DNA of 64,000 nt from the NCBI GenBank assembly GCA_949358305.1, contig OX442314.1:34157608-34221607 (forward strand), read 5' to 3'. Position 1 is the stretch's first letter. Every line of letters begins with the position of its first letter. The DNA comes from Strigamia acuminata. Lineage: Eukaryota > Arthropoda > Chilopoda > Geophilomorpha > Linotaeniidae. The position numbers and the translations under genes are program-made. Below, one piece after another: positions 5,250 through 58,888 of this stretch. The notes below the pieces were generated by a model, which was given only the letters and a program-made list of their open reading frames with translations, did not search any database and was not told where the DNA came from.

Positions 5250-5254
5250 CATTC

Positions 5255-14557: not shown

Positions 14558-14561
14558 AACC

Positions 14562-24187: not shown

Positions 24188-24192
24188 GGTTG

Positions 24193-24500
24193 TGTTAGGC
24201 TTTTATGTACACTTGTGTCGTATCATCAAGCGGTGATACGCTTTGTATTTATTATATTTGTTTATTTGCGCGCTGTATTATTTGTAAGACTAGCTGCTGT
24301 GTTTGTTTACATGCAGCTTATGTATTTTGCCCAAAGGGGGCGCTGTTTATGTTCTTTCTGGCCACATGACTGGATAATAAAACTCACTTGCTTTTCTGCT
24401 TTCAACACATAAAGATGTCGCTTATTTATTCTCACAAAAGGTGTTTTTCACACCACTGCATTTATACACAATATGTGTAAGTTTGCACTACAAATTAACA
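24193..24500 (+). repeat. 5' LTR of element 3
   Basis: It begins TGTTAGGC and ends AATTAACA and recurs at 29801-30108. An ATAATAAAAC polyadenylation-like signal lies near 24375. Confidence 0.95.
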
Positions 24501-24513: not shown

Positions 24514-25303
24514 CAATAACGATGAAAAACATCTGGAGCAACTTTGGGAAGTCAGCTGCCATTTGGAGGTCACCAAGGCGATTCATCTTTATTTATCCAA
24601 GATGGCGGCGCCCATGGGAGAAGAAGCAAGTCTGTGTTAGTGCCACTAAATTCGAGACAAGGAAGCAACAAGCAGTCACCAAACCACACAGGAACAATAA
24701 GGGTTCGAAACAAACAGTAAAACTTTTGTTTAAACTATTTCTCTTTTCGTTTTGGGGAAATTTGTCCCCATATTGCGAGGCGCAATACGTGTCGTTAACG
24801 TCGCGGGAATTTCGGTGGAGAAACGTATCCAATACGTCGGCGACTGTTCCAGTCAACCACACGTGAAGTGTGAACCGAAATTGTCGAGGAACGGCGTGAA
24901 CAAAGACGGACGGCGTGAACAAAGACGAATTTCAAACGACGGAAAACGAGCGAACGAGTTACGAGGAGAAAACAACGTTTACGAACAATACCAGTGTACG
25001 AGAACGACACCAAGACGGTACTTCTCGCCAACCACACGTGAAGTGTGAACGAGAAAGGAAAAACGGCGCACAACTACTGGAAAGACGCCATTTTTCATGA
25101 ACATTTATTTCGAATTTTTGATTATTTTCGATATTATTGAATTATTAGTTTAGTGTGTGATAGGATATATACTAACATAATTCTAAGAGCGAACTAACAT
25201 CGCAACACTGCACCCCGTTGCGATTACCAGTAGTTGAAAGTGTTTTTGAGAGAATTAGTGTGTGTTTGTGGAATTTTTCGAGCGGTGGACATTGAATTTC
25301 ATA

Positions 25304-28300: not shown

Positions 28301-29782
28301 GAAGTTTGGGAGTTGGTTCCGCCACCATCCGACACAAAAATCATAGGATGCAAGTGGATATATACTGTCAAACAGGACGATAAGGGAGAAATAGCGCGTT
28401 ATAAAGCCAGACTCGTGGCGCAGGGCTTTTCACAAGTCTACGGCGAGTCCTACGAGGAAACATTCTCACCTGTCGTGGACTTTTCGATCGTGCGCTTTAT
28501 GTTCACGCTACTCGTCTGCATGCTTGGTTGGGCATATATTCAGGCCGACGTCAAGTGCGCATACTTATATGCGAAACTGCACAAGACAGTTTATATGCGA
28601 CAGCCCAAAGGATTTGTTCATCACGGCAAGGAAAATTACGTTTGCAAATTGCTACGAGCAATTTACGGGCTGCATCAGTCTGGAAGAGAGTGGGGCATCG
28701 AACTTGAAGAGACTTTATTAAAACTTGGTCTCCAACACGTAGACTGGTGTAACTGCGTTTACAAGTTCAAGAACATCGCGTATTTGATCGTCTACGTCGA
28801 CGATATTGTAGTTTTCGGCAAACGCCATGAAGACGCGATGGATGTCCTTAATATGATCAAGACGCAATTTGATCTCGTAATTTTGGGACAAACCAAGAAG
28901 CTGCTAGGAGTTGAGTTCTACGCACATCAACAACAAATGATCTTGCACCAAAGGTCATACATCAACAAGGTGTTGCTGAGATTCCAGAACCATCTCGAAT
29001 CAGTGAAGATCAGGTCGCAGCCAATGATCAAGTCTACTGTACTTACTAAGAAACAATGTCCAGCTACAATTGAGGATTTTAAACTAATGGAGAAAATCTC
29101 GTACAGAAGTTTACTTGGATCGTTAGCCTTCATAGCATCAAGAACCAGACCTGACATGACTTATGCAGTGAACATCTTAAGTCAATTCCAATCCAATCCT
29201 GGTTGGGAACATTGGCTAGTATTGTTGGACCTATTAAGCTATTTAAGGACGACAAAAGGCTTTGGATTGATGTTATTTCCAAACAGTCGAATAGAGGTTA
29301 TTGGATACAGCGATTCCGACTATGCCAATAACCGTGACGACCGAATTTCCGTTGGTGGAACTCTCATAACATTGGGAAATTCACCAATCTTCTGGAGGAC
29401 ATTCAAACAGCGGAATGTGACATTGTCTACCATGGAAGCGGAATATGTAGCTCTCACAGAAACAGTCAAAGACTACATTTGGATCGTGAGAGTGTTATAC
29501 GAAATTGTCCCTGATTTGGCAAATCGTTTTTACCACCGAGTATTGTGTGACAATATCTCCACGGTTGACTTTACGAAGTCCAACATCGAAAACAGAAAAA
29601 CCAAACATATCGATGTTAGGTATCACTTCATACGAGAATTAGTTAAAAGGGACAATCTTCAAGTAATCCATGTGGGGACAAAGTCAAATTACGCCGACAT
29701 CTTCACCAAGTCTGTTGATAAGACGGACTTAATTCAATTTTGCAATCGCTTTTTGATTAATCTAGATGTTCTGAGCGCATGA
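25304..29782 (+). CDS. gag-pol: Element 3 Gag-Pol polyprotein (about 1492 aa)
   Basis: The ATG at 25304 starts a typical Copia Gag (NYDSWKQQ motif). The frame is also open to an upstream non-ATG position. A CCHC knuckle CFRCNQPGHWAKDC lies at about 26115-26157. The protease motif is IYDTGATGHF near 26300. WHERLGHIHF precedes the integrase, which has HMDVCGAF, RTDNGMEF and NGVSERLNQ. RT has YVDDIVVF at about 28795. RNase H has YSDSDYANN, STMEAEYVAL, CDNISTV and KTKHIDVRYHFIRE. There are no frameshifts or stops, and every catalytic residue is present. The 800-bp leader before it has no other gene. Confidence 0.94.
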   Translation: MDSDKLERKITLLNRLNYDSWKQQIKVLLMHHGCWAFAEGTEEALAPGASWRDRSDFKLRQGRAFSLIYYSIEEQYHELLSGVDDAKKAWNTLKANFEPVSRARIIRLLDEFFSLKYDPATETIGVFAAKIRNAAKKLADVKHKLEDLYQAFQLIRYLPQEYQSIVQAIYRWEDINFTLEKVEIELVAEEGRLAQQRRDTGQGSITDAFSTGSGSTTTKSGDNSTKTQQKNSNQNNKANYTGQKGGRSNWRGGRNTNFRGNSTGSTGRGPCFRCNQPGHWAKDCTVQLQLAPNTNMKTNTVEELDTNMLDVGFLTELSEEEISQCSAASNCWIYDTGATGHFCKERSQFHNFREMTGTISQADKKTLIQIQGVGDVCIMCLVGNDTIPITLKKVYYAPDLRRNLMSGPCIDEARCRVAIGAGLVKIYDPQWKRQLMEGVKRDRLYYIRISDQKPDLDKLKAKESNKANVGQQKNEEPSNTSKKRSNPEEARLWHERLGHIHFPSVQDMSKREAVVGLPFLDVPITQCDVCDLAKKKAVSHKSIPGIRSKEPLQLLHMDVCGAFSTETLSGNKYFLTITDDYSRYSTVYLMKRKDEVFDLFRKHAKRIERLLGKSILAIRTDNGMEFCSNKFGQYLEEQGIAHERTNAYTPVQNGVSERLNQTLANGMRALIYDAQLEHRFWGEAILTFNYLRNRIAKLNSEKTPMELYYGRKPSLRHLRKFGSLCFVQKRIRDSKIDNKGIHGIMLGYSRITKGYRIWLPDFSKVIETSDVKFVESKRGVEGVLGLPEKYTTFIDNLNDNLDNDNERQYYSDEDVRPPLPPPQPIKKKEEEELPQVKLKFRLPEEKLRPKPGAEAGVKLQGILPQPGQTPLNPVRTIPPLVWKRTEKTRPTGQKDFEYTIEGHDKPKLRSIPEVRRYCADHNLRIPEHLFEDKRKKKHSGSNVTQDDLDLSIFDELTLDFEANHLEVNIPTRFEQIANLPEKDEWNQAMCEEIHTMHEREVWELVPPPSDTKIIGCKWIYTVKQDDKGEIARYKARLVAQGFSQVYGESYEETFSPVVDFSIVRFMFTLLVCMLGWAYIQADVKCAYLYAKLHKTVYMRQPKGFVHHGKENYVCKLLRAIYGLHQSGREWGIELEETLLKLGLQHVDWCNCVYKFKNIAYLIVYVDDIVVFGKRHEDAMDVLNMIKTQFDLVILGQTKKLLGVEFYAHQQQMILHQRSYINKVLLRFQNHLESVKIRSQPMIKSTVLTKKQCPATIEDFKLMEKISYRSLLGSLAFIASRTRPDMTYAVNILSQFQSNPGWEHWLVLLDLLSYLRTTKGFGLMLFPNSRIEVIGYSDSDYANNRDDRISVGGTLITLGNSPIFWRTFKQRNVTLSTMEAEYVALTETVKDYIWIVRVLYEIVPDLANRFYHRVLCDNISTVDFTKSNIENRKTKHIDVRYHFIRELVKRDNLQVIHVGTKSNYADIFTKSVDKTDLIQFCNRFLINLDVLSA

Positions 29783-29800: not shown

Positions 29801-30108
29801 TGTTAGGCTTTTATGTACACTTGTGTCGTATCATCAAGCGGTGATACGCTTTGTATTTATTATATTTGTTTATTTGCGCGCTGTATTATTTGTAAGACTA
29901 GCTGCTGTGTTTGTTTACATGCAGCTTATGTATTTTGCCCAAAGGGGGCGCTGTTTATGTTCTTTCTGGCCACATGACTGGATAATAAAACTCACTTGCT
30001 TTTCTGCTTTCAACACATAAAGATGTCGCTTATTTATTCTCACAAAAGGTGTTTTTCACACCACTGCATTTATACACAATATGTGTAAGTTTGCACTACA
30101 AATTAACA
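29801..30108 (+). repeat. 3' LTR of element 3
   Basis: It is identical as read to 24193-24500 and is followed by the GGTTG duplication. Confidence 0.95.
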
Positions 30109-30905
30109 GGTTGGCCCTGTTGTTGACGGGGCGGACGTGGGCATCGGTTCGCGTAATGTCCGAGCTGATCACAATTAAAACATTTCACTGTCGAGATATC
30201 ACGAGGCCCGGATTTATTACGCTGACGAGATTGTCCCTTCGAAGCATGGGCCGACGTGTTAGAGGTTCCGAGTAACCCAATTGACTTGAGTCTCATGTGT
30301 TCGGAAATTAGCTGCTCGGCGACATCCTTCGGCGTAAATTGAGGATCCGGCCAGTGGTATATGGCGAATGTTGCCTGAGCATATTCGGGCGGCAGACACT
30401 TTAAATACTGGTATGCGTGGTGAACCGGACTGATGACTTCATTGACGTCGCTTAATTGGCGCACGTAATTGTCCACGCGGGCAATGAAATCTGGCATATC
30501 TTCGCTAGGTTGGAGTTGGAGGCTGAGGAACTCCCAGCGCATCGCCGCTTGACGGGCTCTAGAGCTGGGCGCGTAGGTTTTCGCCAACTTGTCCCACGCC
30601 TCCTTTGGCGTGTTACAGGTTTCCAAAACAGTACGCTTGGCGGGGCTCACATGGAGGTAAATGAGGCCTAGCGCCTTGTCCCTCTTTATGTTGAAGCGAT
30701 CAAGTTCTTTAGCCGTCAGGGTGGCAATGTGTTCTGCCTCTTTGTCCTCCGTTATGTGGCGCCAAAGACCTTCAGATTTCAGGAGAAACTGCATCGACAA
30801 TCGCCATTGTTCGTAATTGTCGACACCAAGAACCGTAATTAAATTGTTCGGATTCCCTGATTTGTGCATTTTGAATCGCTGGACGAGACACGACGCGGAG
30901 AACAC
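30109..30905 (-). CDS. gag: Element 2 Gag-Pol, Gag portion, cut by element 3
   Basis: The frame starts at 30905; a second ATG at 30869 is closer to the usual Copia Gag start. It carries the NYEQWRLSM motif and an internal UBN2-like region. A CCHC knuckle CFNCDQLGHYANRC lies near 30150-30190. It breaks at 30109 after a Gln/Pro-rich stretch, where element 3 was inserted. It continues in the same phase at 24187. The apparent stop is inside element 3. Confidence 0.9.
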
Positions 30906-31880
30906 AAAGGCTCAGAGAGTGGCACAAAATCGGAGCACAATTCACTATTCGGAGCACTGCACTGCACGGTTCCCTCGGTGTTCGAGGCGAAAAACCACAA
31001 ATTGGGCAATTCCTTCTGAAGGAATCAAATAACCTCCGGTTGCCAGTCTGAAAGGGTCCGATCGGCTTCCTGGAGCCGCGGGAAACCTCACTTGTACCGC
31101 GACAAGCACAACCGGAGAATACGTGTAAGCGTGATCGGACTCGATCGAAGAGCAAACACGATTCTAAAGGAACCCCCAAAAGCCTTAAATTTATCTTAAA
31201 GTTAACAATGGTATTTCGAAAAGGAGAAATAGATGAATCGATCGCGGTTGCGATCCTCGCGCAAATGAAGGCGCGGCTCGGCTTTCTCGAAAAGCCGGAG
31301 AAAACGCAATTCGGACGTGAATGTCCGAATTCTTCTCGAAAAATCGAAAATTCGAAAATTCGAGGCTCTTCGTCCTCTTGAAAAATTCGGTGATAACCGC
31401 CGTTCACCGGGGAACTAAGCGGCGAACAATCGAGTGTTCGATTCTCGTTGCAACCGCCGCACTTCGCTAAGCGGTGTCGAAAATCAAAAATGCGGCAAAA
31501 TCTGAAAATAAATAATATTCGCCTCGAAATCCGCGAATCCCGCGTGGTTTCGGACGAAATTAATTGAGGAATCGCTGGAAAAACAGCCCTGGCTGCTACA
31601 CAGCGTCGAAAAATCGAAAAATCTGCAAATAACAATTTTTGCTTTAAAATTCGCGAATCCCGCGGAATTTTAAGCAAAATTAACGTCGAAAATGACGGAA
31701 TGTGCAGTATGCACGATGCTAAACGTCGACAGGGCGTCTCAGGCGATGTGCGAGACGTGAAGCAGACGAAAATCGGCCGGAACGCAGTTGAAATCTGAAA
31801 ATATAAAGTTTCGTCGCACAAATCGCGAATTTCGCGAAAAATACACCGAAAATTAATCAGAAAATAGTTGTGTTTGACCA
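30906..31880 (-). other. Element 2 leader with degenerate repeats
   Basis: This 975-bp stretch lies between primer site and gag. About 31470-31860 contains three diverged copies of a roughly 120-bp unit. Each has AAAATCTG(A/C)AAAT and a GCGAATCCCGCG-like palindromic core followed by an (A)AAATTAA stretch. A long minus-strand frame runs through it (31887 to 30772), but its composition looks like chance and it overlaps gag. Confidence 0.5.
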
Positions 31881-31881
31881 C

Positions 31882-31911
31882 AACCATCCTCTGCTACCAA
31901 TGTAGCAGAGT
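31882..31911 (-). other. Primer binding site of element 2 (3' end of initiator tRNA-Met) with flanking hairpin
   Basis: On the minus strand TGGTAGCAGAGGATGGTT (31899-31882) is complementary to the last 18 nt of initiator tRNA-Met, CCA included. The LTR end next to it reads CTCTGCTAC, which forms a perfect 9-bp inverted repeat with GTAGCAGAG of the primer site, with a 4-nt loop. Confidence 0.85.
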
Positions 31912-32380
31912 AGGGCGCAGAATATCGGTGAATTGTCACCGGGAAGCGTGGAAAATGGGGCCGTGCTGCGCGCACGGACGTAGGCGATACGACGCGTATC
32001 GTAAGCGAGACGGCGCGTGGCTTATGGCCACTTATAGCGCACTAAACTAGCACACAAAGTGCTTTAAAGCAAAGGCAATGATAACAAAATATAAAACACT
32101 TTACTAAAATAAGAATACATTACATAAATGGTGTGAAAAACAATCAAGCAGCACACAGCCGTGTGCTGCGCCATCTTGGATTTGGATAACAGTGATGGTG
32201 GCACTCTGGTGCCAGAAATTAGTATTAATAAAGGATAAATCATTGGATTGAAGAACAAATCATATCAAAACAAGACAAGAGTATGGAATTACATACGAGA
32301 CATCGCTAAACTAACAATAATATCGAAATCAAAAGTATATAAATAAATACATCGACAAAAGCATGGTCTTTAGACCAACA
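31901..32380 (-). repeat. 5' LTR of element 2
   Basis: It pairs with 19244-19723 at a constant offset of 12657. The target duplication ATAAC follows at 32381-32385. Confidence 0.92.
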
Positions 32381-32385
32381 ATAAC

Positions 32386-33625
32386 ATCGCGTCTCCATTC
32401 TCAGGCGCATCAGCGGCGGGATAACCCACGAGCTCCTGTTGTGGTTGGGCGTGCGCGTTTGGCTGCTGAGGGCGAACGTTTGCGACGAATTGGCGAGCGG
32501 AACGCCCATTTGCTGGAGGATATCGTCCAGCTGCAGGGGCTCCAGCGTCGGGTCCAGGATGGATTTGTAGCCGCAAGAGCGGCGCCTGATTTGCCTGCTG
32601 CCGTTGCTGTGTTGTCGGAGCGATTGGCGCCGAGTTCGTCTCAGTTTTTCAACATCGCTTCTGGAGTAATGGTCCCCCAATGTCGACCAGTGCCTACATT
32701 ACAACGCGTGCTGGAGGTTCCACCGGCCCAGGTGAGCGAGATAGTGGATGATTTGCCGGAGGTTTATGTAGTTCCACCGCCAATTGATGAAGCGGCCTTA
32801 TCAACCGCGCTGCTGCCAGTTGGGCAACCTACCTGTGACATGGACGAGATAGCGACCCCTTTTGGTGTGAACCTGCGACGGGATTGGGCCGAGACTGACA
32901 TGGAGTGGCTGATTCGATGCCACGACGAGGCGACGCGCCGTCGCGAAGCCGCTTTTCCGGGAGGAATGGTTCCTCGTTCTTCGTCCTCCCAATTGGAGCA
33001 GTCGCTGGATTATGTTGGGGAGCTGCCCAATTTGCGCGTTTGTTTGACTGACGCCGGACGAGGTGTCGAGTTTTTATCAGAGTCGTCGGATGATGAGGAG
33101 GACGATGATGCGTGCCCGCGACGACAGCTTTTGCCTGTTTTCACTGGTCGTCCAGTCCAGCATGACCTGCCGTTTCCAACTCAACCCGAGGATTTAACAG
33201 CCGCAGTTAAGAAGGTGATTGATTTGCAGCATCGGAAGCGAGATTTTATTACGGTTCGTGAGCTCGAGCTGTATTTCGAGACGATTATGGCACGTGCGAC
33301 CTTCGACTCGCTTTTCCCCATGGGTGCCCTTGAATGGGAAGGTCCATCGCGATGGCGCACGGACACTTATTTGGAGGCCGATGCTTCGCGTTGGAGAGAG
33401 TTTTTCTACTTGGTGGTGAAGAAAGAACTTGGATTGCCGGAGAACGTTGCGGCAATAGTTCATTTGCTCGGGGAAGGCCACATTCGCGTGTTGCAGCAAT
33501 TGATCGCGGACACTTTGACCGAATTCCGCCCACGTTCTGAGCAGCAGCTGGGCGATGTCGTTACTTATCGCGTCCTTACACTCATGAAGGAGCTTGTGAC
33601 AGCTGTCACCGGCTATGAGTTTTAA
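32386..33625 (+). pseudogene. Element 0 third ORF, C-terminal part
   Basis: The frame continues that of 18609-19243 after element 2 and runs about 413 codons to a TAA. It has an Arg-rich start, a PPPID stretch, an acidic DDEEDDD patch near 33090, and a predicted helical C-terminal third with several conserved Trp. It has no membrane segments. Total length with the first part is about 625 residues. I do not recognise the family. Its position matches the third ORFs of elements 1 and 4. Confidence 0.6.
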
Positions 33626-35204: not shown

Positions 35205-36962
35205 ATAGTTTAAGTTTTATACAAACGTTGACGACACTGAGTTGGTAGAACTTTAATCTGGAAAATAAATAAATAAATAAATAATAAATAATATAAATGG
35301 TGTTTCGGACAACGTTTGTTATTCTAGTCAAACTGGTTCTCATACGATAGCGCTAGATATCAGCTCACAATATGTATCTTTGGCTGTAAGAAAATAAGAA
35401 AACAAAAAAAATAAAAATTCGTTCTCTATTTATATTCTAACAAATTTTATTCCGTGTTTACATGAGTCAAATTTTCATCAGTATTAGTGCCATTACAACA
35501 TATGAAATGGTATGATAGTCATTTTCATTGCAAATTCCAAAAACATACATACTGTGATACTCATGCAAATTCATAGAAACTTGCAGAAATCTATGTAGAC
35601 CCGAAAATTCTAATGTTTCCACGTAAATCTCAGAACGAGACTGGGCCTCGTCATCAATTGGGAAATTTTGCAGCTTTATTTTATGTAAAAATTAAAAATA
35701 ATGTAACACCTCATTTCAACAAACGTATTGAACATAATTATGCATTTACTTACGTTTTGACGTAGACGTTTCGCCGGGAAATATTTATGACAGTGGATAG
35801 TCTAAACCCTCCATCCGAGTTTCGTGGCAGCCATGTTGAATTTGGGTGGAAAAACGAAAACCCGGAATAAACGACTGCAACCGTGGTTTTTGTTTTTGCG
35901 GTTTTTGCTGCTTGTTTACGCTGTTGTTAATGTCCACTCTGTTTATAGAAACACCAAAATCGTAAAAAGAGAAGCTTTGAACGCGGCTAACATAATTTTT
36001 TGTACAAAACCAATTAGATGTGCCAATGAAAGTTTGAATCCACTACAATCCTCATTCCACCTTATCACATTTTCCTCGACCAGGACACGAAGTTAAGCAG
36101 GCGCAAGGACTTGTATTAATTTGGCCAAAGATACCTACGATCAGCTGCTTTGAACGGTTGCAAAGATAAATAATCCCAGTTGTTTTTATTCCAACAAAGC
36201 ACGAGTTTGTTTTGTGTGTATTTTCTCTTTATTTGCTATGATGTAAAGTACATGAAGTTAATTTACAGTCAAAACTAGAAAAATAATGACGATGCTAATT
36301 TAATACACAAAAAGTAACAAAGATGAAGACCAAACCAAATAATTACGAGTAAAATTGAACTGACTAGCAAACTACAGCAGAGAATGTGAGTTCGATGTGC
36401 AGAGAAAGAAGTGATCCCAAAATAACAATAAATATTTGTAAATTGAATCTTATTTTTTCTAACATGTGCAACTAATTTAATACCTACACACAATTTTAAA
36501 TTTAGTAGATACAATACATAACTGTCAAGTAATATTGAAATATCTTTCAATTTGTGTTTTAGAGGTACCGACACTTTATTCAGGTGCACATGGGTGTATT
36601 AGATGCTGATGATACTTTTGGCTATCAAATAATACTAGTATTACGACTACTGAACCAATCCAAATTTCACAAGCAAATGATCCAATAACTTTATCTAACT
36701 TTAGTTAATTGGTAAATGCATTCATGCATGTGTAAAGGTTGTACAGAGATAAACCTGAAGTAAAAATATGAACGGAATATTTGGAATGCACCTTAGTACT
36801 AAACGCTAACACTATTAGATTGCTGATATTTTGCATGCAATATATATTGGACTCTGAGCCCAACAATGCAACATAGTATACATAGAACAGAAGGCATGTA
36901 CAATAAATGGTAATTATTATTTGGTTTTAATTATGCATGGCTTTATAATGTCAACATAGCAA
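35205..36962. other. Non-coding interval between the retroelement stack and gene A
   Basis: AT-rich DNA with an (AAAT)n run at about 35260-35290. A 90-codon plus-strand frame at 35824-36096 has a hydrophobic segment but no supporting context. From about 36280 to 36960 it is homologous to 43140-43656 downstream of gene B, so it is 3' flank of the gene duplication. A CGAAGTTAAGCAG stretch near 36088 resembles the core of 5S rRNA. Confidence 0.5.
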
Positions 36963-39900
36963 TTAGAATTTTTTCTTTAATTTTAGTAACTGAAAAAACA
37001 ACGTGTGCAAGAGTTCAGGAATTGCAAGAATTGAAAGACCAAGCATTAGTGCAAAACAATTTCCAATATCGCAGCATAGTGCAACTTCATTATAGGATAA
37101 TATTTGTGTAATCTCTTCGATTATGTTATTTGTTGGAATTATGGCGAGAAGTCTGAGTGTCCATGCTTCAGGATGCTGAAAGTAGACAAAGGTGTCGAAC
37201 ACCGATTCTTCGCAAGGTTGGTGACATCCACAATCTTTCCTTAATTCAACTTTTAAGGAACTGTTCATAAACAATGCCAATGATGTTAGGGCATCTTTAG
37301 CATTGGTACAATTATCCTTGTTTATGTTGTCCATAAAAGGTAACCTGGAAATATTAAACAAGAAAATGCATGAAGCACGTTTTAACATATTTTACTATGC
37401 TGCATTTGCAAATGTACGCAGAATAACCAGTAAATCTTTTACATTCTTTTTACAACTCACTTGCACTGGATGATGTTAAATATCTTTTTGTGGTAACAAT
37501 CATCTTGGCACCTTTTATATTTGTCGGGATCGAGGCAAGGGTGCATACGCAAGTTCAATCGAATGTTCTAAATTAGAATAATTGATTAATATTTTATTTT
37601 TAATTTCTAATTATTTAGGCGCGTGCTTTAAGCATTCTGAATGTAAGCGCGGTAAGTGTGTCTCGTTTAATATTTCTTCTACTTCTGAGAATTGATGGTA
37701 ATTTTTCTTCACCTTTTTTAAAGTATATCTAGAAACAGAAATTATTTTTTACAACAATTTTTGCTGGCATCATATGTACAAAATTGATACATTACTTCAT
37801 ACATATCCGGATTGCAGGTTTTATCGTTGTTTGATAACAAACTGAAATATATCGCTGAGGCAGTCCCTGCATATCTCACTGGAGCTGAGAAAAATTAAGA
37901 CCATTTAATTTTAAATAATTCACTAAAATTTGAAACTGTTGTACCGATATCAAATTCGAAGCATGTTCCAGAGTGCATAAGTTTTTTGTGCCAAGATAAG
38001 CCAGTTTTCACGCTAGTTATCTGAAAGATATTTACAAACAAGAAGTTTTTAGGTAAAATTAAGAATTGGGAAAATTGCTCTACTTCTCCTATTATAAATT
38101 ATTTTGTTGTAACGATCTTTTGATATTACAAAATTTTAATAAAACAAATCGGAAATGTAACAGGAAATGAAAATTTACTTTGTTATTCCGAACATTTCCA
38201 GTTAAAAATGGCCTTTTCGGCACCGATTGTGAATGAGACAGTGTCGATGAAAAAAATTCAAAAATTAGTAAAAGACACTATAGAATTGTAAAGGATTTAT
38301 CCATTTATAACCTTTTACCAAAACGTTTTGAAAACCGACCCACTGGTCCTGTATGAAATGAAAAAATAATTCATTCGTTTGTGATGATTTGTCGGTAATA
38401 TAATTATTATCATACTTGGCAACGAATACACAAATACACGGCGCTTGCCAAAAAAGTAATTTTAATAACCATCCAGCTGAACTATACTCTGGCTCATCAT
38501 TAGAGGGTACCCAGTTCCTATTGGCCGAGACTGTTTACTCCTAACTGTTGCCTTTATACTACCACTAGAAAAAGCATTTTGTTTTAATTTTGTGATTATT
38601 ATAATGATTAAAATAATATCATTTTAATTGTATTTTATAATAAAATGATTTTCCAATTTATAAAATACAGTTTTATGCTGTTTTTAGTTTAATACACATG
38701 TCTGTTTAGTTTATTGATTGCTTTGCCTGGAAAGCACAAAATTTTGAATTTTGCCAGTTATCTAGGCAATTGATTGCAAAGTCTGTACACCTATTATGCT
38801 TCTGGTATCTTGGCCTACTTTAATGTGTACCTACAACAGTGAAATGGCTCGGCCAATAGGAACTGGGTACCCTCTAATGATGAGCCAGAATATAGAAAAT
38901 GATTTTAACTAAAATTTACTTTCTTTGCCATTTCCATATTAGCAGTATTCACAGAAGGGGTTTGCAGTCTCCATACTTTTTCTATTGATGGATTTTTTCC
39001 TCGGAACGACATATTCATTAAATTGATAAAATTGATCTTGCATTCATTCATGCCCACATCTTTGGCGTATTTTCTCCTGTAGGAAATCATCAAGGGTCCA
39101 TCCATGCATGCAATTATATTAGGCAAATACAATGTGTTGTTTTCTTGAATAATTACTACAAATCTTGTTGGTTCACTTAGGTAAAGTGATATTCTCTCCT
39201 TGCTCACATAGAATGCTAGTAGGACAGAAATAAATATAAGAATCAAATAGAACAAGCGAAGCAGGACAGGTTTTTCTTTTAGTTGCAATATCTCTTTCTG
39301 TGAATCTGCATTTTTTTTCTGAATTGCCAAATACATTTGATTGGTTATTGTTTTCTTGATGTTAACTTCAAGTTGATTAGGTCTGATATACTTGTACAAA
39401 AGGAGTAGAACGAGCTGTGCAATCTCAATTATAGAGAGAAGAGAAAATCCGACGGAGAATCCCAAATTGCCCCCAAAATCTATCAGCAAATTAGATATTG
39501 AGTAAATGTAGACTTCTGTCATTCTGATAAATGTGTCTTCTAAGATTTTAATGCGTAGGCCTAAAAATTCTTTTCCATTTGGAACATCTTCAAAACCTAA
39601 CAGAGATTAATTATTTTGTTTATTATGCATGAACATGGTTTATATTTGCTTAACGATCATCGGTGTGTACTATAAGGAAATAAACATTGCTTTGACAAGG
39701 TCTCAAGCAGCCACATTCTAATGATGCTAATGTAGATATTTCACGAATGTAGGCGTCTTCATGCACCTTAGCCACAATTTGTTTGTCCAGTTCTAAACTG
39801 CAATCTGGCAGATTTTTGTCTTTCATGTAGGGCAACCTATTTTAAAAGTCTGTTAAGTAACATACAATATTCAATGGTTTGCTTTGTATAGCAAATTTTG

Positions 39901-41913
39901 ACCTGCATTTTGGATGATCTAATCGAGTTTGTTTTGCCACACATTCTTCATGACATTGCATTTGTTTTCTCTGTTTTGGCTCGCAAAAAGGACTTCTTGT
40001 CGGTAAAAATTGATACTACCAATAAGAAATCTAGTATTACTATTCCTAATATTAGTTGGAAACAATAAAGCTGAAATATTTTGAGGAGAATGTAGTGGTT
40101 TGTTTAGTTTTGATTAATTTGATTATTGTCACTAGTCAGCGCTAGTGGTCTGTACTGTTGTAATTGGTTCATGATATATCAAGAGTGATTTAAATGGTGA
40201 CCAAGTGAAATAAACTATAGCAGTTAGTGTGTATCAACGTTTAATGCAGTTTTTATTGTCACAATATCAAAGGATATTCAACAGTGGCATAGTTAAAATT
40301 TAAATCATTTGAAATATTTCAATTCATGTAAACAGTGTGAGATTCGACACTATCAATTTTTAGTTTTGTAGATAAGGCCTAACCCCGGAGCTTAGCTGCG
40401 GCCAGGCACAGCCCAAACCAGTAGGTGCTGGGGTTGGCAAACTAGGGTGACATCAAACTGCTTAGGATAGACCAGAACTGCTCTTACTTGTGGAATAAAT
40501 TATTTTGGTCAGGAAAACTTTGGCAACAGTATGTATGCCTGTTTAGGTGTAGTCGCCTAAAAATTTCGTGTGTGAAAAGGTGTCGCAAGTGGAAAAAGTT
40601 TAAGAAGGTCTGCAATGTGCAACATTGGTTGTTTCACGTACTTGTCGAAAAAGATATTGTATTTCAGTCTGTATTCCCACTTTCATTGCTAGGGCATATT
40701 GATATGGCAAGACACTATCTTTAATGGATCCCTGAAATCAAAATTGGAGTTTATACTGAAATTAAAATAATTTGAAAAGAAGATTCTTACACCAAGAAAT
40801 GGTTGGTCACATGATCCATTTTTTTTAAACAAAGACTGAAATGCCATATTTTGGGCTAATTTGATATCTGAATAAAAATTGAGAAAATTGTAATTAGGAA
40901 TAGAAATAAAGCATTGCTTTCCTCCAACCAGGTCTAATGATCAGTATATTTCCAATTATGGTATTTTTATATTCGAATGAAATAGTCGTTTCTTCTTTTT
41001 TATAAATTCCATTTGCCATTGTAGTTTCATGCAGTACAGTCTTGCCCTGAAATAAATATAATGCGATCATTCATTGTCATTGTATTGTTTGTTTATATAA
41101 TTTATCTGGGAACGAGATGGGCAGAGCCACCCCTTGAATAACAAAAGAAAAATTACGTGCATAACAATGCTGACAGCTAACAATGCAATTAAAATATTTA
41201 AATAATGGGCTTCATGAAGGCAAATGAAAGTTGTATAACTGGTTCATAATATCCTGATTTCCGCTTCCGTTTTCGTTTGCTCCCAAAACTGTCAACACTA
41301 TTCGAATCCGCACCCTTGATTACCCCTAAATACAAATTCTGGAGATGGTCTGAGAGGTGGCCCGTAAACTGGAATTGTTCCACACACAGTAATGATATGA
41401 AGCTTATATAGATTAAAGGCATACCTGTTTAATTTTGAAGTGTTGGAAATTTTTGGAAATGTTGGATTGCGACCATAATTGTGTATAGTTTTCCACTTTC
41501 AATTTCTCCTGTATGATCCCTTTCGTTGCAATGGGACAAGCTAAGCTTTTTGTAAGACTACTCATGGGCAAGTCATCAATCTGCTCCCAGTACCGAGACA
41601 ATAATTGGGTATCCAGACCGTACAGAAGAAATTCAAATGGCTCCTTTTCTGCAATTGGCACATAATCGATCTCAACTTTGAAATGTCCATGAAAGTAGTA
41701 TTGAATTCTTTCAATCGTTTGATAACAACAGACGGTGAAACAAACAACCAAACCAACCAACCAAACTGTTCGAATTGCAGGGCTGTTTTTCTGATTGAAA
41801 GCATTGTCGATAAATTTTAAACTATCATTGTCAGATATAGAAGTGTGCATTTCTTGCCTCACGAAATGGCGAATAAGCCTACGACGTAAACGCAAACCTT
41901 CTAACTCCTTCAT
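36963..41913 (-). CDS. Gene A: two-module DEG/ENaC-family cation channel subunit (multi-exon)
   Basis: Minus-strand exons with GT-AG borders in compatible phases are 41913-41425, 41046-40929, 40867-40791, 40731-40642, 40015-39903, 39836-39655, 39596-38920, 38020-37945, 37884-37796, about 37728-37690 (end unresolved), about 37568-37460 and 37344-36963. Module 1 has TM1 (RTVWLVGLVVCF), a Cys-rich ectodomain (CHEEC, CGCLRPC) and TM2 with DFGGNLGFSVGFS. A linker of about 41 residues leads to a second TM1 (RLFYLILIFISVLL). Module 2 has another ectodomain (CLDPDKYKRCQDDC, CGCHQPCEES) and TM2 DIGNCFALMLGLS, then a short basic tail. G-x-S selectivity-filter motifs occur in both TM2 segments (GFS and GLS). 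The product is about 830 residues. Known family members have one module. Confidence 0.85.
38485..38892. mobile_element. MITE-like element with TIRs and TA duplication in a gene A intron
   Basis: Perfect 41-bp inverted repeats lie at 38489-38529 and 38848-38888, extended outward imperfectly to TATACT/AGAATA. TA flanks both ends (38483-38484, 38893-38894). Gene B lacks the 408-bp element at the matching place (near 47020), which gives an empty site. There is no coding capacity. TA duplication suggests mobilisation by a Tc1/mariner-type transposase. Confidence 0.85.
38920..39596 (-). CDS. Gene A fusion exon: TM2 of module 1, linker, TM1 of module 2
   Basis: One uninterrupted 677-nt exon, bounded by GTTAG at its start and AAA/GTAAAT at its end, contains the pore helix of the first module. 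It then has a charged, Lys/Gln-rich linker, the first membrane helix of the second module and the start of its ectodomain. Because TM2 ends and TM1 begins in the cytosol, no extra helix is needed. The linker therefore joins two channel modules with correct topology. Gene B has the same arrangement in 47049-47684. Confidence 0.9.
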
Positions 41914-42224: not shown

Positions 42225-42590
42225 TTTAACTCGAGAAGTCGTACCTGTCGGTGTTGACAGTCTTATATCAGAATGGATTATGATGGTAACTGACCACCTG
42301 TAATTTTTTCGTCAACATAAGAGACTAATTATTTGTGTGGAATATCACGAACATACACAACTATAAATTTTTCATCTAAATTGATTTTGCTTTTTATACA
42401 GTATACTGTTAGTTGTGTATTTAAAACACTGGCAGGTGTTGAGAGTCCCAGCAGAATGGATTATGCTGATAATTGACCACCTGTAAATTTTTCGTCAACA
42501 TAAGACTAATTATTTTTGTGGAATATCACGAACGTAACATACAACTATAAATTTTTCATCTAAATTGATTTTGCTTTTTATATACAAGTT
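42225..42590. repeat. Tandem duplication of a 183-bp unit upstream of gene A
   Basis: Two diverged copies share GAATGGATTATG, ACCACCTGTAA, TTTTTCGTCAACATAAG, GGAATATCACGAAC and CTAAATTGATTTTGC in order. GAATGGATTA occurs at 42271 and GAATGGA at 42454. Each copy also has GTGTTGA and AAAACACT segments. Confidence 0.75.
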
Positions 42591-43411
42591 GTGTTTATGT
42601 GGATAGAAATTACTGTTTTGCAGTAAAAATGTTATATACAAAACATGCAAATTATGACTCATTCTATTTGAATTAAGAAATTATTTCTCCAAGTCTCGAG
42701 TGTTTATACACCGTATGTTAACAAACATTAAAATTCGATATTTTATTGATTAAGTATACACCTTGTTATACGTGCAATTACAAACTCGGTTTCACTTTTT
42801 GTTATGTTTACAGTTAATTCAAATTCAAATTTCAAATTTAAATTTTCATCAAACTTAACTTGGCACAAACCATGAATTATACTATCTTGGAACAAACAAG
42901 TAACAACAACTGTGAGTGAATTTAAACACCAAAAAGTAATTGCGCGATTGTTTGATTAAATAGCAAAGATCTTTATTGTGTGCGCGCCGTTGTCCCTGAC
43001 AACTGTCTGTGTACAAAAAATAGCTGAATAAATAAACAGCTTATATAATGACGATGGTAATTAACTTAAGATGACTACGATAAGTTGGATAGTACTAATT
43101 TGATGGTGCTCTACAACTTTCTGATTAAAAATTTTCTTCTAACCTGATTGGTTAAACCAAATAATTACTAGTGAACTATGGCAGAGAATATGAGTTCGAT
43201 GTGCAGAGAAAGAAGTAAACACAATATAACACTAAATATTTCTAAAATTGAATCTTTCTTTTTAACATGTGCAACTAATTTAAAACCTACACACAATTTT
43301 AAATTTAGTAGGTACATTACTGTCCATAGATGTTATTAGATGCTGATGATACTTTTGACTATCAAATAATACTAGTATTATGACTAGCTGAACCAATCCA
43401 AAGCGTACAAA

Positions 43412-43441: not shown

Positions 43442-45569
43442 CATCTAATACCTTTATCTAACTTTAGTTTATTGGTAAATGCATTCGTGCATGAGTAAAA
43501 GTTATGCAGAGATAAACCTGAAGTAAAAGTGTGAACGGAATTTTTGAATGCACCTAGATATACATAGAACATAGAAAGCATGGACAGTAAATGGTAATTA
43601 TTATTTGATTTTAATGATGCATGGCTTTAAATGTCAACATGGGAATGTAAATGCGGTTAGAATTTTTTCTTTAATTTTAGAAACTGAAAAAACAAATTGT
43701 GCAAGAGTTCAGGAATTGCAAGAATGGATAGACCAAGCATTAGTGCAAAACAATTTCCAATATCGCAGCATAGTGCAACTTCATTATAGGATAATATTTG
43801 TGTAATCTTTTCGATTATGTTATTCGTTGGAATTAAGGCGAGAAGTCTGAGTGTCCATGCTTCAGGATGCTGAAAGTAGACAAAGGTGTCGAACACCGAT
43901 TCTTCACAAGGTTGGTGACATCCACAATCTTTCTTTAATTCAACTTTTAAGGAACTGTTCATGAACAATGCCAATGATGTTAGGGCATCTTTAGCATTGG
44001 TGCAATTATCCTTGTTTATGTTGTCCATAAAAGGTAACCTGGAAATATTAAACAAGAAAATGCATGAAGCACATTGTAACATATTTTACTATGCTGCATT
44101 TGCAAATCTACGCAGAACAACCAGTAAATCTTTTCCATTGTTTTTACAACTCACTTGCACTGGATGATATTATATATCTTTTTGTGGTAACAATCATCCT
44201 GGCATCTTTTATACTTGTCGGGGTCGAGGCAAGGTTGCAAACGCAAGTTCAATCGAATGTTCTAAATTAGAATAATTGATTAATATTTTAATTTTAATTT
44301 CTAATTATTTAGGCGCGTGCTTTTAGCATTCTGAACGTAAGCACGGTGAGTGTGTCTCGTTTAATATTTCTTCTACTTCTGAGAATTGATGGTAATTTTA
44401 CTTCACCTTTTTTAAAATATATCTGAAAATAGAAATTATTTTTTACAACACTATTTATTGGCATCACATGTACAGAAATGCATGATTATATATGTCATTT
44501 AGCGCATTTTATGTACAAAACTGATACATTACTTCATACATTTCCGGATTGCAGGTTTTATCTTTATTGGATAAAAAACTGAAAAATATCGCTGAGGAAG
44601 TCCCTGCATACATCACTGGAGCTGAGAAAAATTAAGATCATTTAATTTTAAATAGTTCACTAAAATTTGAAACCATAGTACTGATATCAAATTCGAAGCA
44701 CATTCCAGAGTGCATAGGTTTTTTGTGCCAAGATAAACCAGTTTTTACGCTAGTTATCTGAAAAACATTTATAAACATGAAGTTTTTAAATAAAATAAAC
44801 AATTTTGAAAATCGCCATACTTCTCCCATGATAAATTATTTCGTTGTAACGAACTTTTGTTATTACAAAATTTCAATAAAACGAATCGGGAATGTAATAG
44901 GAAATGAAAATTTACTTTGTTATTCTGAACATTTCCTGTTAAAAATGGTTTTTTCAGCACCAATTGTCAATAAGACAATTAGTAAAAGCGTTACAAAGAC
45001 AAGCACGCAGTTGACGGCGCTCACCAAAAAAGTACCGTGGTTGTGAGATTTTGCGTTACATCTCGCTTCGTGTTTTCTCATCTTTTCACGTGGACCACGA
45101 TATGTATCGGTACAATACATGAAGATTTTTTTCGTTTAATTCTAATTATGTAGACCAGGCTTACATATTATTAGAAATAAACGAAAAAATCTTCTTTTTA
45201 TTCGTATCGTATAGATTTCTGAAATAAAATAAATTGTTGTAAAACTTAATATAAAATTTAATCAATTGGAGAAAAAACGAGAAAATTGTTTTCTCGCGTT
45301 TTCACATGGAGCGCAAGCTGTAACGCAAAATCCCTGTATTGGTACAGTACCGAGACCGCGGTACGTTTTTGACAGGCACCGTGTACCACGTGCTCGTACA
45401 GCGTTACACTTAAAGGTTACCGCCCAAAACACTGCTCAACAATACGAAATACGCTCTCCCGTCTGGACAGTTTGTTAGTCCGGACAATTTTCTGTAGGGC
45501 GACACACTGCAATTTGTTTATTCACTTACATAGGCCAGGGCTTCTTAAACTGTTTGATTTGTGTACATA

Positions 45570-47048: not shown

Positions 47049-47684
47049 TCTTTTAGCCATATCCATGTTAGCAGTGTCCACAGCAGGGGTCTGCAGTCTC
47101 CATACATCCTCTACTGATGCATTTTTTCCTCGTAGAGACACATTCATCAAATCGATAAAATTGATCTTGCATTCATTCATACCCACATCTTTGGCGTATT
47201 TTCTCCTGTAGTGTATCATCAAATATCCATCCATGCATGCAATTATATTAGGCAAAAACAACGTGTTATTTTCTTGAATAATTACTACAAATCTGGTGGG
47301 TTCACTTAGGTAAAGTGATATTCTCTCCTTGCTCACATAGAATGCTAGTAGGACAGAAATAAATATAAGAATCAAATAGAACAAGCGATGCAGGAGAGAT
47401 TTTTCTTTCAGTTGCAATATCTCTTTCTGTGAATCTACAATTGCATTTTTTTTCTGAATTGCGAAATGTATTTGATCGGTAATGGTTTTCTTGATGTTAA
47501 CTTCAAGTTGACTAGGTGTGATATATTTATACAAAAGAAGCAGAACGAGCTGTGCAATCTCAATTATAGAGAGAAGAGAAAATCCCACGGAGAATCCCAA
47601 ATTGCCCCCAAAATCTATCAGCAAGTTAGAAATTGGGTAAATGTAGACTTCTGTCATTCTGATAAATGTGTCTTCCAACACTTT
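47049..47684 (-). CDS. Gene B fusion exon, main part (TM2, linker, TM1 of second module)
   Basis: It corresponds to gene A 38920-39575, with DFGGNLGFSVGFS followed by the linker and RLFYLILIFISVLL. It keeps the donor AAAAGA/GTAAAT. Its upstream 50 nt lie 12.6 kb away at 60248-60297 because of the TIR insertion. Sequence conservation with gene A suggests the fused protein was functional until recently. Confidence 0.85.
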
Positions 47685-47824
47685 AGAGGTTTTGCGATTT
47701 CACTTTTTATAAGTATAACTTATAACTTATAACTTATAGATTTATGACCTATAAGTTATAAGTTATAAGTTATACGTTATAAGTTCATTCATTTTGCGAT
47801 TGAACTTTTTTGGAACATATAACT

Positions 47825-48421
47825 TGTGACCGTCAGGCTACCTGGGTGACCTGCGGCACTGCCACACACCACCATACGGCCCCAAAGGTCAACCCCTCTG
47901 TGGGTGATTGACCTAGCCCGGGGAGGAGGGAGTGGAGTGGTGTGGTGAGGAGGGAGTGGAGTGTGTAAGGAGAGTTGAGTGTTGGACACGGCCTGAGAAG
48001 GACGTGTCTGCAGCGGCTCCCAGAGAGGAGAAGTAGTCATCGAGAGGGACGAGAAGTGTCCCAGGTTGAACCCCACACTCCTCACCATTCACCACGTTGA
48101 TCCTCAGTGCTATGGCGGAGTCCGTAGTGCAGCCTCCATGAGCGGATACGCGGGTCGCAGGTAAGCGCGACATGAATGTTAAGTCGAACCGACCACGTCA
48201 CACATTGGACTTCTGCCCAGTGTGTGACGGGTCGGTTGCCGGTGCGGCGCGCCTTCGTGGCGCCCCTGCAACGGGTAGCGGGATTCCCCATACCCCTAGA
48301 CAACGACAATAAAGGCCAACCAACCAATATTGTGGGAATCTTGTTATTATTACGTGATGTATGCGTCCCTACCCAGTGTTATTAGTCCCCTAGTTACATT
48401 GGCGAGACCATACCAGTCACA
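47825..48421 (+). repeat. 5' LTR of element 4
   Basis: It matches 58889-59485 at a constant offset of 11064. AATAAA lies near 48309. A minus-strand ORF that recurs in both copies is only LTR sequence. Confidence 0.92.
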
Positions 48422-48423
48422 AT

Positions 48424-48452
48424 TGAGGGCCCCGTCCGAGATTTGAACTTGG
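48424..48452 (+). other. Putative extended primer binding site of element 4
   Basis: TGAGGGCCCCGTCCGAG followed by ATTTGAACTTGG lies 2 bp after the LTR. Its complement contains GTTCAAATCTCGG, a canonical tRNA T-arm, followed by an acceptor-like strand. Complementarity would thus extend through the T-arm. The expected TGG (for CCA) reads TGA. Confidence 0.45.
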
Positions 48453-51373
48453 AAAGTTTTTTTTTGATCCGCCATTTTGTTTTGCCTTGTGCTCAACCCT
48501 TTGTTTCATTGTGGTTAGCTTTTTGTCTCAATTTTATCGTTGTCACGTATTGTTTTACTATTTGTTTCAGGTTTTGTTGCATTTTGCTGTATTTTTTTGG
48601 CGGGGGTCAATTGTATTGTTTTCCATTTTTCCTTGTTTTGGACTTGGGTTAATTGCTTTTTTATGACCGGAATTGAAGGGGTGTTCTGTTTACCACTTTG
48701 GGTCCTGGTGGGTTTAGTTGTGGGAGGCGGGGTGCTTTTTCATTTGAAGGTTGTTAAATTGTATTTTTCTCAGTGCTGGTGTGGTTGGGGCTCTGAAATT
48801 AATTTTTTCAGACGCACTGCAACCAACCAAAACATTGTGATATGTGTTTCTCTAATTGGCTTTGGGAGATTTGCTCACCCCTCGGTCAGTCACAGGGATG
48901 CATGTCACGGTGTCTTATCTTTTGTGTTTTTCTCCCCTTGTACTGACTTGACCTCGCAGTGCTTTTGTCTTTATTTTTCAATTGCACTGTGTGTCTATTT
49001 TGGTGCCGGGTTGGGAAACATTTGTTTTTCTTCTGCCACATTTTTTTCCTTGGTTTGAGCTGGGTATTGCTCAGACTTTTGGGAGATTTGTGCAATTTTC
49101 TTTTGTTTTATGGTAATTTTTCTTTTTGTTGGTCTGGCTGGAATTTGTTTGACTTGTTTTTTTTTGTGTTCTGATTGAGGTCCGCTTTGCAATGACAGTA
49201 GCCAACCAACACATTGGTCTAATACCATTCTTTATTTTTTTTTGTAGGTATGTTTTGTTTATGTGTTTGGTTTTGGCTTGGGTCGACCTGGATGTTTCCT
49301 TTAATCATCTTGGGGCGACAATGGCCAACCAGCACATGAGCTTGATACCATTTTTTTATTATTTTATAATTTTTCGTTTCTTGGTGTGCAACCTATAGAG
49401 GGAGGAACCAGTTGGGGGTGCTCAGTTTTTGTGGTTTGGGGTGTTGGAATAGATCTGTTTCATCATCTCAAGGGCAATTGAGAGTGGCTGTTGAGTGTCT
49501 TAGAGGGTCGGCACCACACCGGACAATTGGTGGATTTGGTTCTTTGATTCCTCTCTCAGGGTCGGGCGATTTGGTGCCTTTTCCGAGTGTGTTTTTTTTG
49601 GCGGGAAGCGTGGTTGTGGTGTTGTTGTGGTGGGCGGGCATGCTGCTGGGTGCAGTATATCCCAGTTCAGCCCTGTGCCTCGCCCGGACGATGATAAACT
49701 AATGCGGTATATTTAGGGGAGCTCTGTTCATTACTGGCCAGAGGTACATTCCTGGTTTCAGCGGTTTGAGTAATCTTTTGAATCACAGGCGCACGTACTT
49801 CCTTGGAGCACACGGAGACTGGGTTTCCAACCCTGTCCCGGGCACTGGTGGAAGCAGTTTGGCATGATTTTGGCTTTTTTGTGTTTTTGTGGCCACTTAT
49901 GGCACATTTTTGTCAATTTCGCTGCCATTCTGTCGAAATTGGGTCTCGGATAGCGGGGAAGGCGGCCCTTGCAGGGGACTGCTTGGGTGTCGAGCCTAAC
50001 GGTGTTTGCTCTCGGACCGCGCGTGGGATGTTTGCAAACACGAATTGGGTGGCTAACGGCTTTGAAAAGAGACCGTGAATCCAGCCCAACATCTTTTTTA
50101 TCTTTGTTTTCAATGTGCTGTGTGTAGATCATTTTGTGATACACGCCACATTTTTCTCCTAACCTTTCTCTTATACTATTTCTACTCTATTTTCATATCC
50201 GGATTGGATTGGGAATGTGACACTCCTGGGGTGTGGACCTAACACATCCTGGCGTTGGACCGTGTTCAACAGTACTCTGCCCGGTCTAATCCAGATTCAG
50301 TCGCCGATTTCTCTTCACTCTTTGTCTGAGGTGACTGAGTCGATTTTTGCCTCATCAGGGTTATCGCGACCTTGATGGTGTTTTGGGTGTGAATTTGGTG
50401 CTTGAGCTAGCTATGCCAAAGGAAGCCTAAAATACGCGATTTTAGCGTTTTCAGCAGGGGTTAAAACTGGTGGCAGACGTATACACCAGCGCAAAGGAAA
50501 ACGTACGACCTTAGCATCGAAGCTGTGGGGCGCGATGAGAAAATGCCACGAAAAATCGATATACGCAGTTTTTTCTACTTGGTTCTGGCGCGAATAATTT
50601 AGAACACGAAGGGAAAGACGAACCGTGCATTGTGTTTGTTAGTTTGGGAGTGTCAGTAAACTTCCAGTCGCCCATTTCTATCTTCTGGGGCGTGGATAAA
50701 TGCCGGAAAGGTGTTCGCTAATTTTTTATTTTTTGGGGCGTGGATTAAAAATACCAAAAAGTGTTCGCTAATTTTTTATTTTGGGGCGTGGATTAAAAAT
50801 ACCAAAGTTTAACCGCTAATTTTATATTTTGGGGCGCAGAGAAGAGCCAAAATTTGTTGTTATTTTTATTGTTGTTCAGTAATTAAAACTATCTTGTAAT
50901 AATTTATTATGTTTTATTCGTTATAGTACATTTTAAATCAGTGACAGATTTGCATGACGCGGTCAGGGTGTTGAACCATTGACCCCGCGGTTCTTCTGTT
51001 CAATCGACTTTTAACCCTAAGAGCGTGAACTCTGATGAAAGAACAGGATGACACCCCTGGTGCATACCTTTTGTCTTCACCAGATGCTTCATTGCCAAAT
51101 TACTAAAACTAGCCTGGTAGATCTTTGAAGCACCGTTAAGGCGCCCGAAGGTCCAACACATGGCCGGTGGTTGGACATTCCATCTGAAGGGGAACTGGAA
51201 CCTTTTTGCAAATTACGGTTGACCTAGTTGTGGGCGGCAGTGATTGGTTAAGGTGACCCTGAAGTTTGTTTGTTTATAGGAAGTGGAGAAGTTTTCGAAT
51301 AATTCCCCACTCCTAGCTTGTGCGTGGTCTTGATCACACTCACGAGATACCACTGACAAGAATCGGAAAAAGA
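48453..51373 (+). other. Element 4 leader without recognisable gag
   Basis: About 2.9 kb of T/G-rich sequence separates primer site and pol. Frames here are hydrophobic by composition and lack gag motifs or a zinc knuckle. A motif CCAACCA(A/G)CACAT...ATACCATT recurs at about 49200 and 49325. About 50685-50835 has four diverged copies of a 60-bp unit, with GGGGCGTGGAT and GTTCGCTAATTTT. An acceptor-like TTTGTTTATAG precedes the pol start at about 51280. Confidence 0.55.
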
Positions 51374-54139: not shown

Positions 54140-54176
54140 TCTTAAATAAGGTGAGTTGAAGCAGTTTTCAATGTTT

Positions 54177-55717: not shown

Positions 55718-55847
55718 TGTCCCCATTATTTCCTCAATTCTCATTCTTTACTCTACGCTATTTTTCAATTGTTCTTTTTCAATCCCATGCGTTTTTCAGT
55801 GGTTTTGACGGCTTTATTAATTGGTTTATTTTCTGTTTATTCTTTAG

Positions 55848-58172: not shown

Positions 58173-58888
58173 AAAGCCCGGATCGTCGGCCTTAGACGCC
58201 GGAATTGTACAAACGACGGACCTTTGGTCCCGATAATATTTCTCCCCTAAACAGGATTCCATGAGATGCCTGTCCCAAGACATGGACGCCGAGCCAGTGC
58301 GAGTGACGAGACGGTGACGCCGCGCCACGCGCTCAGATGCCCGACGAAAGATGACGTCGGAGGTTTCCAATGTTCCCGGAACCTCCCAACCGTGGGTCTT
58401 GGTCAGATCCCGGTTGATGTACATAGTTATTTATGTTTTTCTTTCTTTTTCTCGTTTGTTTAACGTAATTGTTTTAAAACATTCTTGAGAGGCTTGACCA
58501 ACCTCTCCCATCCTTGTTTTACCTTTTAATTTAGTTTGTTTGTTATTGTTTTGTGTCAATATTTTTCTTTTGTTTTATTTTATGGTTTGCTCCCGGGCTT
58601 GTTACGTTCAGGCCCGGTGAATTATTATTTACATTGTAATATCGTCAATAGTCTGTTTTATTTTCGGCCAATCTAGGGTTGGGTGTTTTCCGTTGCCCAA
58701 CGTTGCTCGAACATCGTGGACCGACGGTGCGGTGATCCTTCGGACAACCGGCACCGGGGGTCAGCGCCGGTAGCCCGACAGTGTGTGGTCTTTGACCGAC
58801 ACTATTGCCGTGCTTGCCTCGACTTGCGTGTCCCCGTTGGTGTTGTGTGTGGCCCCTTGGAACCTACCTTTTTCGAGGGGGGGGGAGA
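58173..58888 (+). other. Element 4 3' untranslated region and polypurine tract
   Basis: About 700 bp hold no convincing gene. The last 16 bases (58873-58888), CGAGGGGGGGGGAGA and neighbours, form the polypurine tract beside the LTR. Confidence 0.7.

Follow-up and report, generated by a model that had tools for sequence, protein, structure and literature searches.

A single reading frame for two DEG/ENaC channel modules in a centipede gene, with relatives across the genome

DEG/ENaC channels are known as trimers of single-module subunits. The gene described here, from the centipede Strigamia acuminata, has a different plan: its frame holds two complete modules rather than one module per polypeptide. 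It lies on the minus strand at positions 36963-41913 of a 64,000-nucleotide stretch (contig OX442314.1, positions 34,157,608 to 34,221,607; assembly GCA_949358305.1), to which we refer throughout as the window. A single exon, exon 7, carries one reading frame from the second transmembrane helix (TM2) of module 1 across a linker into the first transmembrane helix (TM1) of module 2; the arrangement is broadly conserved in a large gene family, and exon 7 is under purifying selection. At the DNA level the tandem architecture is well supported, and its translation as one chain is highly probable. We favour, on balance, the joint reading that the gene encodes a natural tandem of two covalently joined DEG/ENaC protomers, and that this chain would enter a trimer with one single-module subunit and have a sensory role.

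The gene model, built by reading the sequence, runs from an ATG at 41913 to a stop codon at 36963 in 13 exons of consistent phase, and gives a chain of 843 residues, or of 833 residues in 12 exons if the optional exon 8 is left out. All introns have GT-AG ends save intron 11 (37568-37626), which is GC-AG. The initial annotation had read exon 7 without a break from the pore helix of a first module, via a linker, into a second TM1, and the frame is indeed open throughout; the linker is 41-46 residues long, according to where the helices are judged to end. It had also placed a second ectodomain and a second pore helix downstream, and exons 9-13 supply both, ending in the LMLGLS of the second TM2 followed by the stop codon that closes the gene. 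Its proposal that one polypeptide would contain two complete channel modules is likewise supported, each module being DEG/ENaC sequence with TM1, thumb and TM2. The junctions between exons 5 and 6 (C R / LPYM) and between exons 12 and 13 (C K / LPFM) fall at the same place and in the same phase, implying that the two modules are duplicates. The N-terminus and TM1 of ASIC1 align with residues 31-88 of the chain, and exon 1 is also present in four other loci of the genome (L029, L031, L032 and L033).

Profile matches and sequence matches in the PDB place both modules in the DEG/ENaC family. Scored separately against the Pfam ASC profile (cut-off 23.6 bits), module 1 reaches 82.7 bits and module 2 58.5 bits, and the complete chain has an expect value (E) of 7e-38; among related exon-7 sequences, 42 of 42 match ASC at E up to 0.1. 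The thumb of each module has eight cysteines of near-equal spacing, both in the window gene and in L029. A G-x-S filter, with F, L, M, V or A as its middle residue, is found in module 1 of 46/46 distinct copies, and the module 2 filter is GLS in all 11 rows of the module-2 alignment. The N-terminal HG gating motif that precedes TM1 in many DEG/ENaC proteins is common but not defining; by eye, it is absent from exon 1 and from the linker of the window gene, and the N-termini of the single-module genes in this genome did not show it in this position either. Among PDB entries, module 2 (residues 462-833) is matched best by PDPNaC1 of Scolopendra subspinipes mutilans (9jf7), at 3e-15 over its length, with BRTNaC1 at about 9e-15. 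Module 1 alone is matched best by BRTNaC1, the Scolopendra broad-range thermal receptor 1 (8ymr and others), at 5e-12, followed by FaNaC1 (7e-7) and ASIC1 (0.004).

How widespread is the exon that joins the two modules? The genome searched, whose first contig begins with (CCTAA)n, the arthropod-type telomere, comprises 237,517,015 bases in 157 contigs, which is 17,267 bases and one sequence less than the published assembly, given in the available part of its report as 158 scaffolds and 237,534,282 bp (PMC10556566). At least 93 matches to the ASC profile were scored among 2094 candidates, and the exon 7 protein matches at least 150 places (the best 150 of 1099 candidates). Three further exon-7 queries from distant branches gave 148-150 matches each, every query being represented by the best 150 of 1099-1492 candidates. 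After removal of rows that do not span both helices (1/150, 24/148, 8/150 and 0/150), the four queries merge to at least 428 distinct places on 14 contigs that match the TM2-linker-TM1 exon over both helices. This figure is a lower bound and counts exon matches, not established genes, and some of the small contigs may be second haplotypes. Many of the places are clustered, for example at 3.7-4.3 Mb of contig C6 and 27.3-28.6 Mb of contig C1. Their number and divergence rule out an assembly artefact and, together with the open linker frames described below, show that the joining exon seen in the initial annotation is not a chance reading.

The linker itself was read in 46 distinct copies, which include the window gene and leave out its broken neighbour in the window (copy 2, described below); L034 and L049 are the same locus and enter the count as one. 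The frame is open through TM2, linker and TM1 in 46/46 copies. In the coding frame no stop occurs in 2003 linker codons, compared with 96/1957 and 119/1957 in the other two frames. These loci were gathered by exon-7 queries, so that both helices were partly selected for, and the tests of frame, stops and selection are free of that effect. Between filter and TM1 lie 47-73 residues. Every linker is basic, with a net charge of +1 to +13 (median +8), as expected for a cytoplasmic segment.

Reading of 12 further loci (L029-L040) in stretches of 9-10 kb, together with the two copies in the window, shows that the joining exon sits in genes of the same plan. A TM1 exon, a TM2-linker-TM1 exon and a TM2 exon with a stop codon follow one another in the window gene, L029, L033, L034 (whose start codon lies outside the stretch read) and L040, and copy 2 has the same exon order apart from an insertion. 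The remaining eight loci show parts of this order, mostly because the stretch read ends earlier; within these stretches, exon 5 of L030 carries a stop, and neither an exon 1 of L030 nor a last exon of L032 was found. Chains of three or more modules were not seen, and a stop closes the second TM2 exon in 5/5 loci that show all three exon types. L029 (C1, 11.96 Mb) is an intact full-length tandem of 830 residues that lacks exon 8 and is 82% identical to the window gene, and its introns are GT-AG except intron 11. Between these two genes the ratio of nonsynonymous to synonymous substitution rates (dN/dS) is 0.39 overall (module 1 0.46, linker 0.67, module 2 0.30). Exon 7 compared with six relatives gives 0.22-0.43, and the linker alone 0.16-0.98.

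Ordinary single-module DEG/ENaC genes coexist with the tandem genes in this genome. In L002, L003, L005, L007 and L008 a TM1 exon is followed by a TM2 exon with a stop no more than eight residues past the profile match; L001, L004 and L006 have a TM2 exon with a stop, their first exon being out of view. Another TM1 exon follows the TM2-stop exon in L002, L007 and L008, and in L007 and L008 it lies several hundred bases further on and has its own methionine. These genes bear on the suggestion that the apparent tandem yields two separate single-module proteins, through a processing cut or through transcripts whose start or end falls in the linker. A methionine does occur in 32/46 linkers. Yet no methionine column is common to more than 13/46 copies, the linker frame is free of stops, and the single-module genes of the same genome stop directly past TM2, with the next TM1 exon of L007 and L008 starting from a methionine of its own. 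We regard separate proteins as very improbable.

Several observations weigh against the favoured reading. The match tables show an internal stop at 10 of the at least 428 places. For the linker, two close pairs have dN/dS values approaching 1 (0.82 and 0.98), which are noisy, with about three synonymous changes each. Module 2 is marked out by replacement of the second glycine in the pre-filter GG pair (10 rows have G-N or A-N, L036 has G-S), and its role in the pore may thus differ. An AlphaFold2 model of exon 7 (42 sequences) itself speaks for the tandem: TM2 forms helices at 33-47 and 52-70 that are interrupted at GFS, the linker is helical (73-94) and TM1 is a long helix (110-140). Its mean predicted local distance difference test score (pLDDT) is 70.5, but its global confidence is low, with a predicted template modelling score (pTM) of 0.37, and a Foldseek search with it found nothing (best E 1.9). 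For exon 13 (19 sequences; pLDDT 66.9, pTM 0.30) the model gives TM2 as a single unbroken helix, 86-124, without the filter break expected there. Sequence and Pfam profile accord with a pair of transmembrane helices around a single large ectodomain in each module, and together these two low-confidence models show three of the four helices of the tandem chain. Finally, the intron 11 donor is weak in the window gene, and retention of this intron would make the fourth codon a stop, so that module 2 would end short of its thumb and TM2.

This last point raises the possibility that the window copy is itself decaying and gives a truncated product, in a family that is nonetheless real. The weak GC donor has an in-frame stop close behind it, the exon 2 donor is weak as well, copy 2 next to the gene is broken, and L030 has its stop in exon 5. 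The GC-AG intron 11 is, however, common to one branch of the family: the donor is GCACGC in the window gene and copy 2, GCACAG in L030 and an ideal GCAAGT in L029, and L032 and L033 have GT donors at this place. L029 thus shares the intron with an ideal donor, all 13 exons of the window model are open, and dN/dS is 0.24 over the 210 exon 7 codons common to the window gene and copy 2. With this evidence on both sides, decay of the window copy appears unlikely.

The trees are most simply read as one old fusion followed by expansion. In a thumb-TM2 tree of 29 rows, 11 module-2 rows form one group (support 94/90). The module-1 rows do not all group together there (they do so in 4% of 200 bootstrap trees), although forcing them together is not rejected (approximately unbiased test, p-AU 0.32); the three labels need three changes on this tree, the minimum being two, and of the eight rows of this genome labelled single five are shown to be so. 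A TM1-region tree of 34 rows unites module 1 (92/96), and also module 2 save for L036, which is placed among the singles (6% of bootstrap trees unite all of module 2). The fusion may be older than the divergence of the centipede orders of Strigamia and Scolopendra, since some distances within module 2 exceed that between L006 and Scolopendra BRTNaC1, a comparison that assumes similar rates. The TM2 region of L006 also groups with BRTNaC1 (99/93), its nearest neighbour in the tree, so that this locus may correspond to the thermal receptor of centipedes.

The coordinates of the window gene and of copy 2 are collected in Table 1. Copy 2 is a second tandem DEG/ENaC gene on the minus strand, extending from 43547 to the end of the window at 64000, with DNA 86-90% identical to the first over the longer pieces; no counterpart of exon 8 was found in it. 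Its exon 7 is split by a nested insertion, the outer element of which has inverted ends (47685-47764 and 60175-60247). Within this element lies a long terminal repeat (LTR) retrotransposon, presumably gypsy-type, at 47825-59486, with 598-base LTRs that are 99.67% identical and a reverse transcriptase-RNase H frame.

Table 1. Exons of the tandem gene and parts of copy 2 in the window
Feature	Position	Strand	Remarks
Exon 1: start codon, N-terminus, TM1 of module 1, first ectodomain strand	41425-41913	-	phase 0, donor gtatgc
Exon 2: module 1 ectodomain	40929-41046	-	L029 counterpart 84.6% identical; weak donor gttgga, gttaaa in L029
Exon 3: module 1 ectodomain	40791-40867	-	gene model, L029 comparison
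Exon 4: module 1 ectodomain	40642-40731	-	gene model, L029 comparison
Exon 5: module 1 thumb, first cysteines	39903-40015	-	gene model, L029 comparison, cysteine pattern
Exon 6: module 1 thumb (LPYM... CGCLRPC)	39655-39836	-	gene model, L029 comparison, cysteine pattern
Exon 7: TM2 of module 1 (GFSVGFS, GFS filter), basic linker, TM1 and first ectodomain strand of module 2	38920-39596	-	single frame
Exon 8: optional, 30 nt	38319-38348	-	only in window gene; skipping preserves frame
Exon 9: module 2 ectodomain (SGTCFEFDI)	37945-38020	-	gene model, L029 comparison
Exon 10: module 2 ectodomain	37796-37884	-	gene model, L029 comparison
Exon 11: module 2 ectodomain	37627-37728	-	followed by GC donor GCACGC
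Exon 12: module 2 thumb, first cysteines	37461-37567	-	gene model, L029 comparison, cysteine pattern
Exon 13: module 2 thumb, TM2 (GLS filter), stop codon	36963-37344	-	
Copy 2, exon 1	63259-63747	-	protein 89% identical
Copy 2, counterparts of exons 2-4	62554-62997	-	sequence match
Copy 2, exons 5 (60607-60720) and 6 (60354-60545)	60354-60720	-	
Copy 2, exon 7, 5' piece	60248-60295	-	
Nested transposon insertion, 12.5 kb	47685-60247	.	splits copy 2 exon 7 (47684/60248)
Copy 2, exon 7, 3' piece, TM2-linker-TM1	47049-47684	-	frame open
Copy 2, counterparts of exons 9-13 and stop	43657-44775	-	sequence match

Direct repeats flank the gene copies (36363-36517 and 43167-43320; 42250-42398 and 42435-42582) and may have helped the tandem duplication. 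Elsewhere in the window, LTR retrotransposon stretches with long open frames occupy 2118-9322, 14550-17249, 19936-24222, 25259-29779 and 30096-30911; they include copia-type sequence and what we take to be gypsy-type sequence. Two long open frames, 32321-33625 on the plus strand and 30772-31893 on the minus strand, have no Pfam match at E up to 0.001. In the mitochondrial contig (15,068 bases), where gene order is rearranged, one segment occurs twice (L047:8304-8513 and L048:2286-2495) with the same 70-residue frame, perhaps as duplicated control regions; ARAGORN, run with bacterial settings, found no tRNA in this contig.

One parallel to the tandem chain lies outside the family. Two-pore-domain K+ channels likewise have two pore modules per chain through an old internal fusion, but their chains pair into a fourfold pore, whereas two tandem modules do not evenly divide a trimer. 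Within the family, ASIC1, FaNaC1 and Pickpocket 26 are single-module subunits; their TM1, thumb or TM2 regions align with the tandem modules as weaker matches. The two best-matching structures are also DEG/ENaC proteins, and differ from the tandem in the same respect: BRTNaC1 is a single module, with 431 residues in the PDB chain, and PDPNaC1, a channel of antennal sensory neurons encoded in nine exons, is in the available account a single-module subunit of 421 residues that forms a homotrimer (PMC12714832). Engineered concatenated cASIC1 dimers, as far as the accessible text describes them, do have two protomers per chain (PMC8341984); they are man-made, whereas the centipede tandem evolved and is kept in hundreds of places.

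Natural tandem DEG/ENaC proteins appear not to have been described. The initial annotation knew of none, and none was found in the open-licence literature available, either among titles and abstract openings on family expansions and on centipede channels or in full text, where the one match on tandem ASC domains concerned an inflammasome protein, ASC, that is unrelated; annotated entries that were never published may exist. A search with the full-length protein of a collection of 5.8 billion proteins (the best 7999 candidates by common words) gave no match at E up to 0.001, which we take to reflect poor coverage of animal sequence in this collection rather than rarity.

How, then, does a two-module chain, found in hundreds of places, fit a threefold pore? 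An ordinary DEG/ENaC subunit has both its termini in the cytoplasm, so that a linker on the inner side can join TM2 to the next TM1 with the topology unchanged. Each tandem chain would then supply two adjacent protomers of a trimeric cation channel, and the third would be a single-module DEG/ENaC subunit from the same genome. Since single-module genes are present, this 2+1 arrangement is the simplest way to complete a trimer, and we put it forward tentatively. The accessible text on the joined cASIC1 dimer reports that it assembles with a monomer (PMC8341984). This counts against a self-sufficient tandem, in which three chains, with six modules, would make two trimers as a double-barrelled channel, or one module would form the trimer with the other outside the pore. 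Such self-sufficiency would accord with the conserved filters and cysteine sets of both modules, with their largely separate lineages in the trees, as if each assembled with its own kind, and with the missing GG pair of module 2, which suggests that the modules are perhaps not interchangeable. No structural or functional datum favours it, however, and we consider it possible but doubtful.

In a 2+1 channel the varied ectodomains would sense chemical or other external cues. The many places, their clustering and their sequence variety fit the pattern of a sensory receptor repertoire, and a sensory role for the tandem family is likely. A bolder proposal is that the main sensory DEG/ENaC repertoire of centipedes was built from one old fusion, with hundreds of tandem chains sharing one single-module partner and the linked modules setting specificity, in the way that insect odorant receptors, themselves variable, share a single co-receptor; we think it improbable. 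In the available text of the Strigamia maritima genome paper, gustatory (GR) and ionotropic (IR) receptors are the expanded chemoreceptors and sodium transport is among the functions enriched in lineage-specific duplicates, and DEG/ENaC genes are not named in the main text; terms for them are not present in a later myriapod genome paper either.

Natural tandems of this kind would serve as evolved constructs, with a fixed subunit order and a fixed neighbour, in which the assembly of DEG/ENaC channels can be tested. For the animals themselves, the tandem family may represent an additional repertoire of sensory receptors in centipedes.

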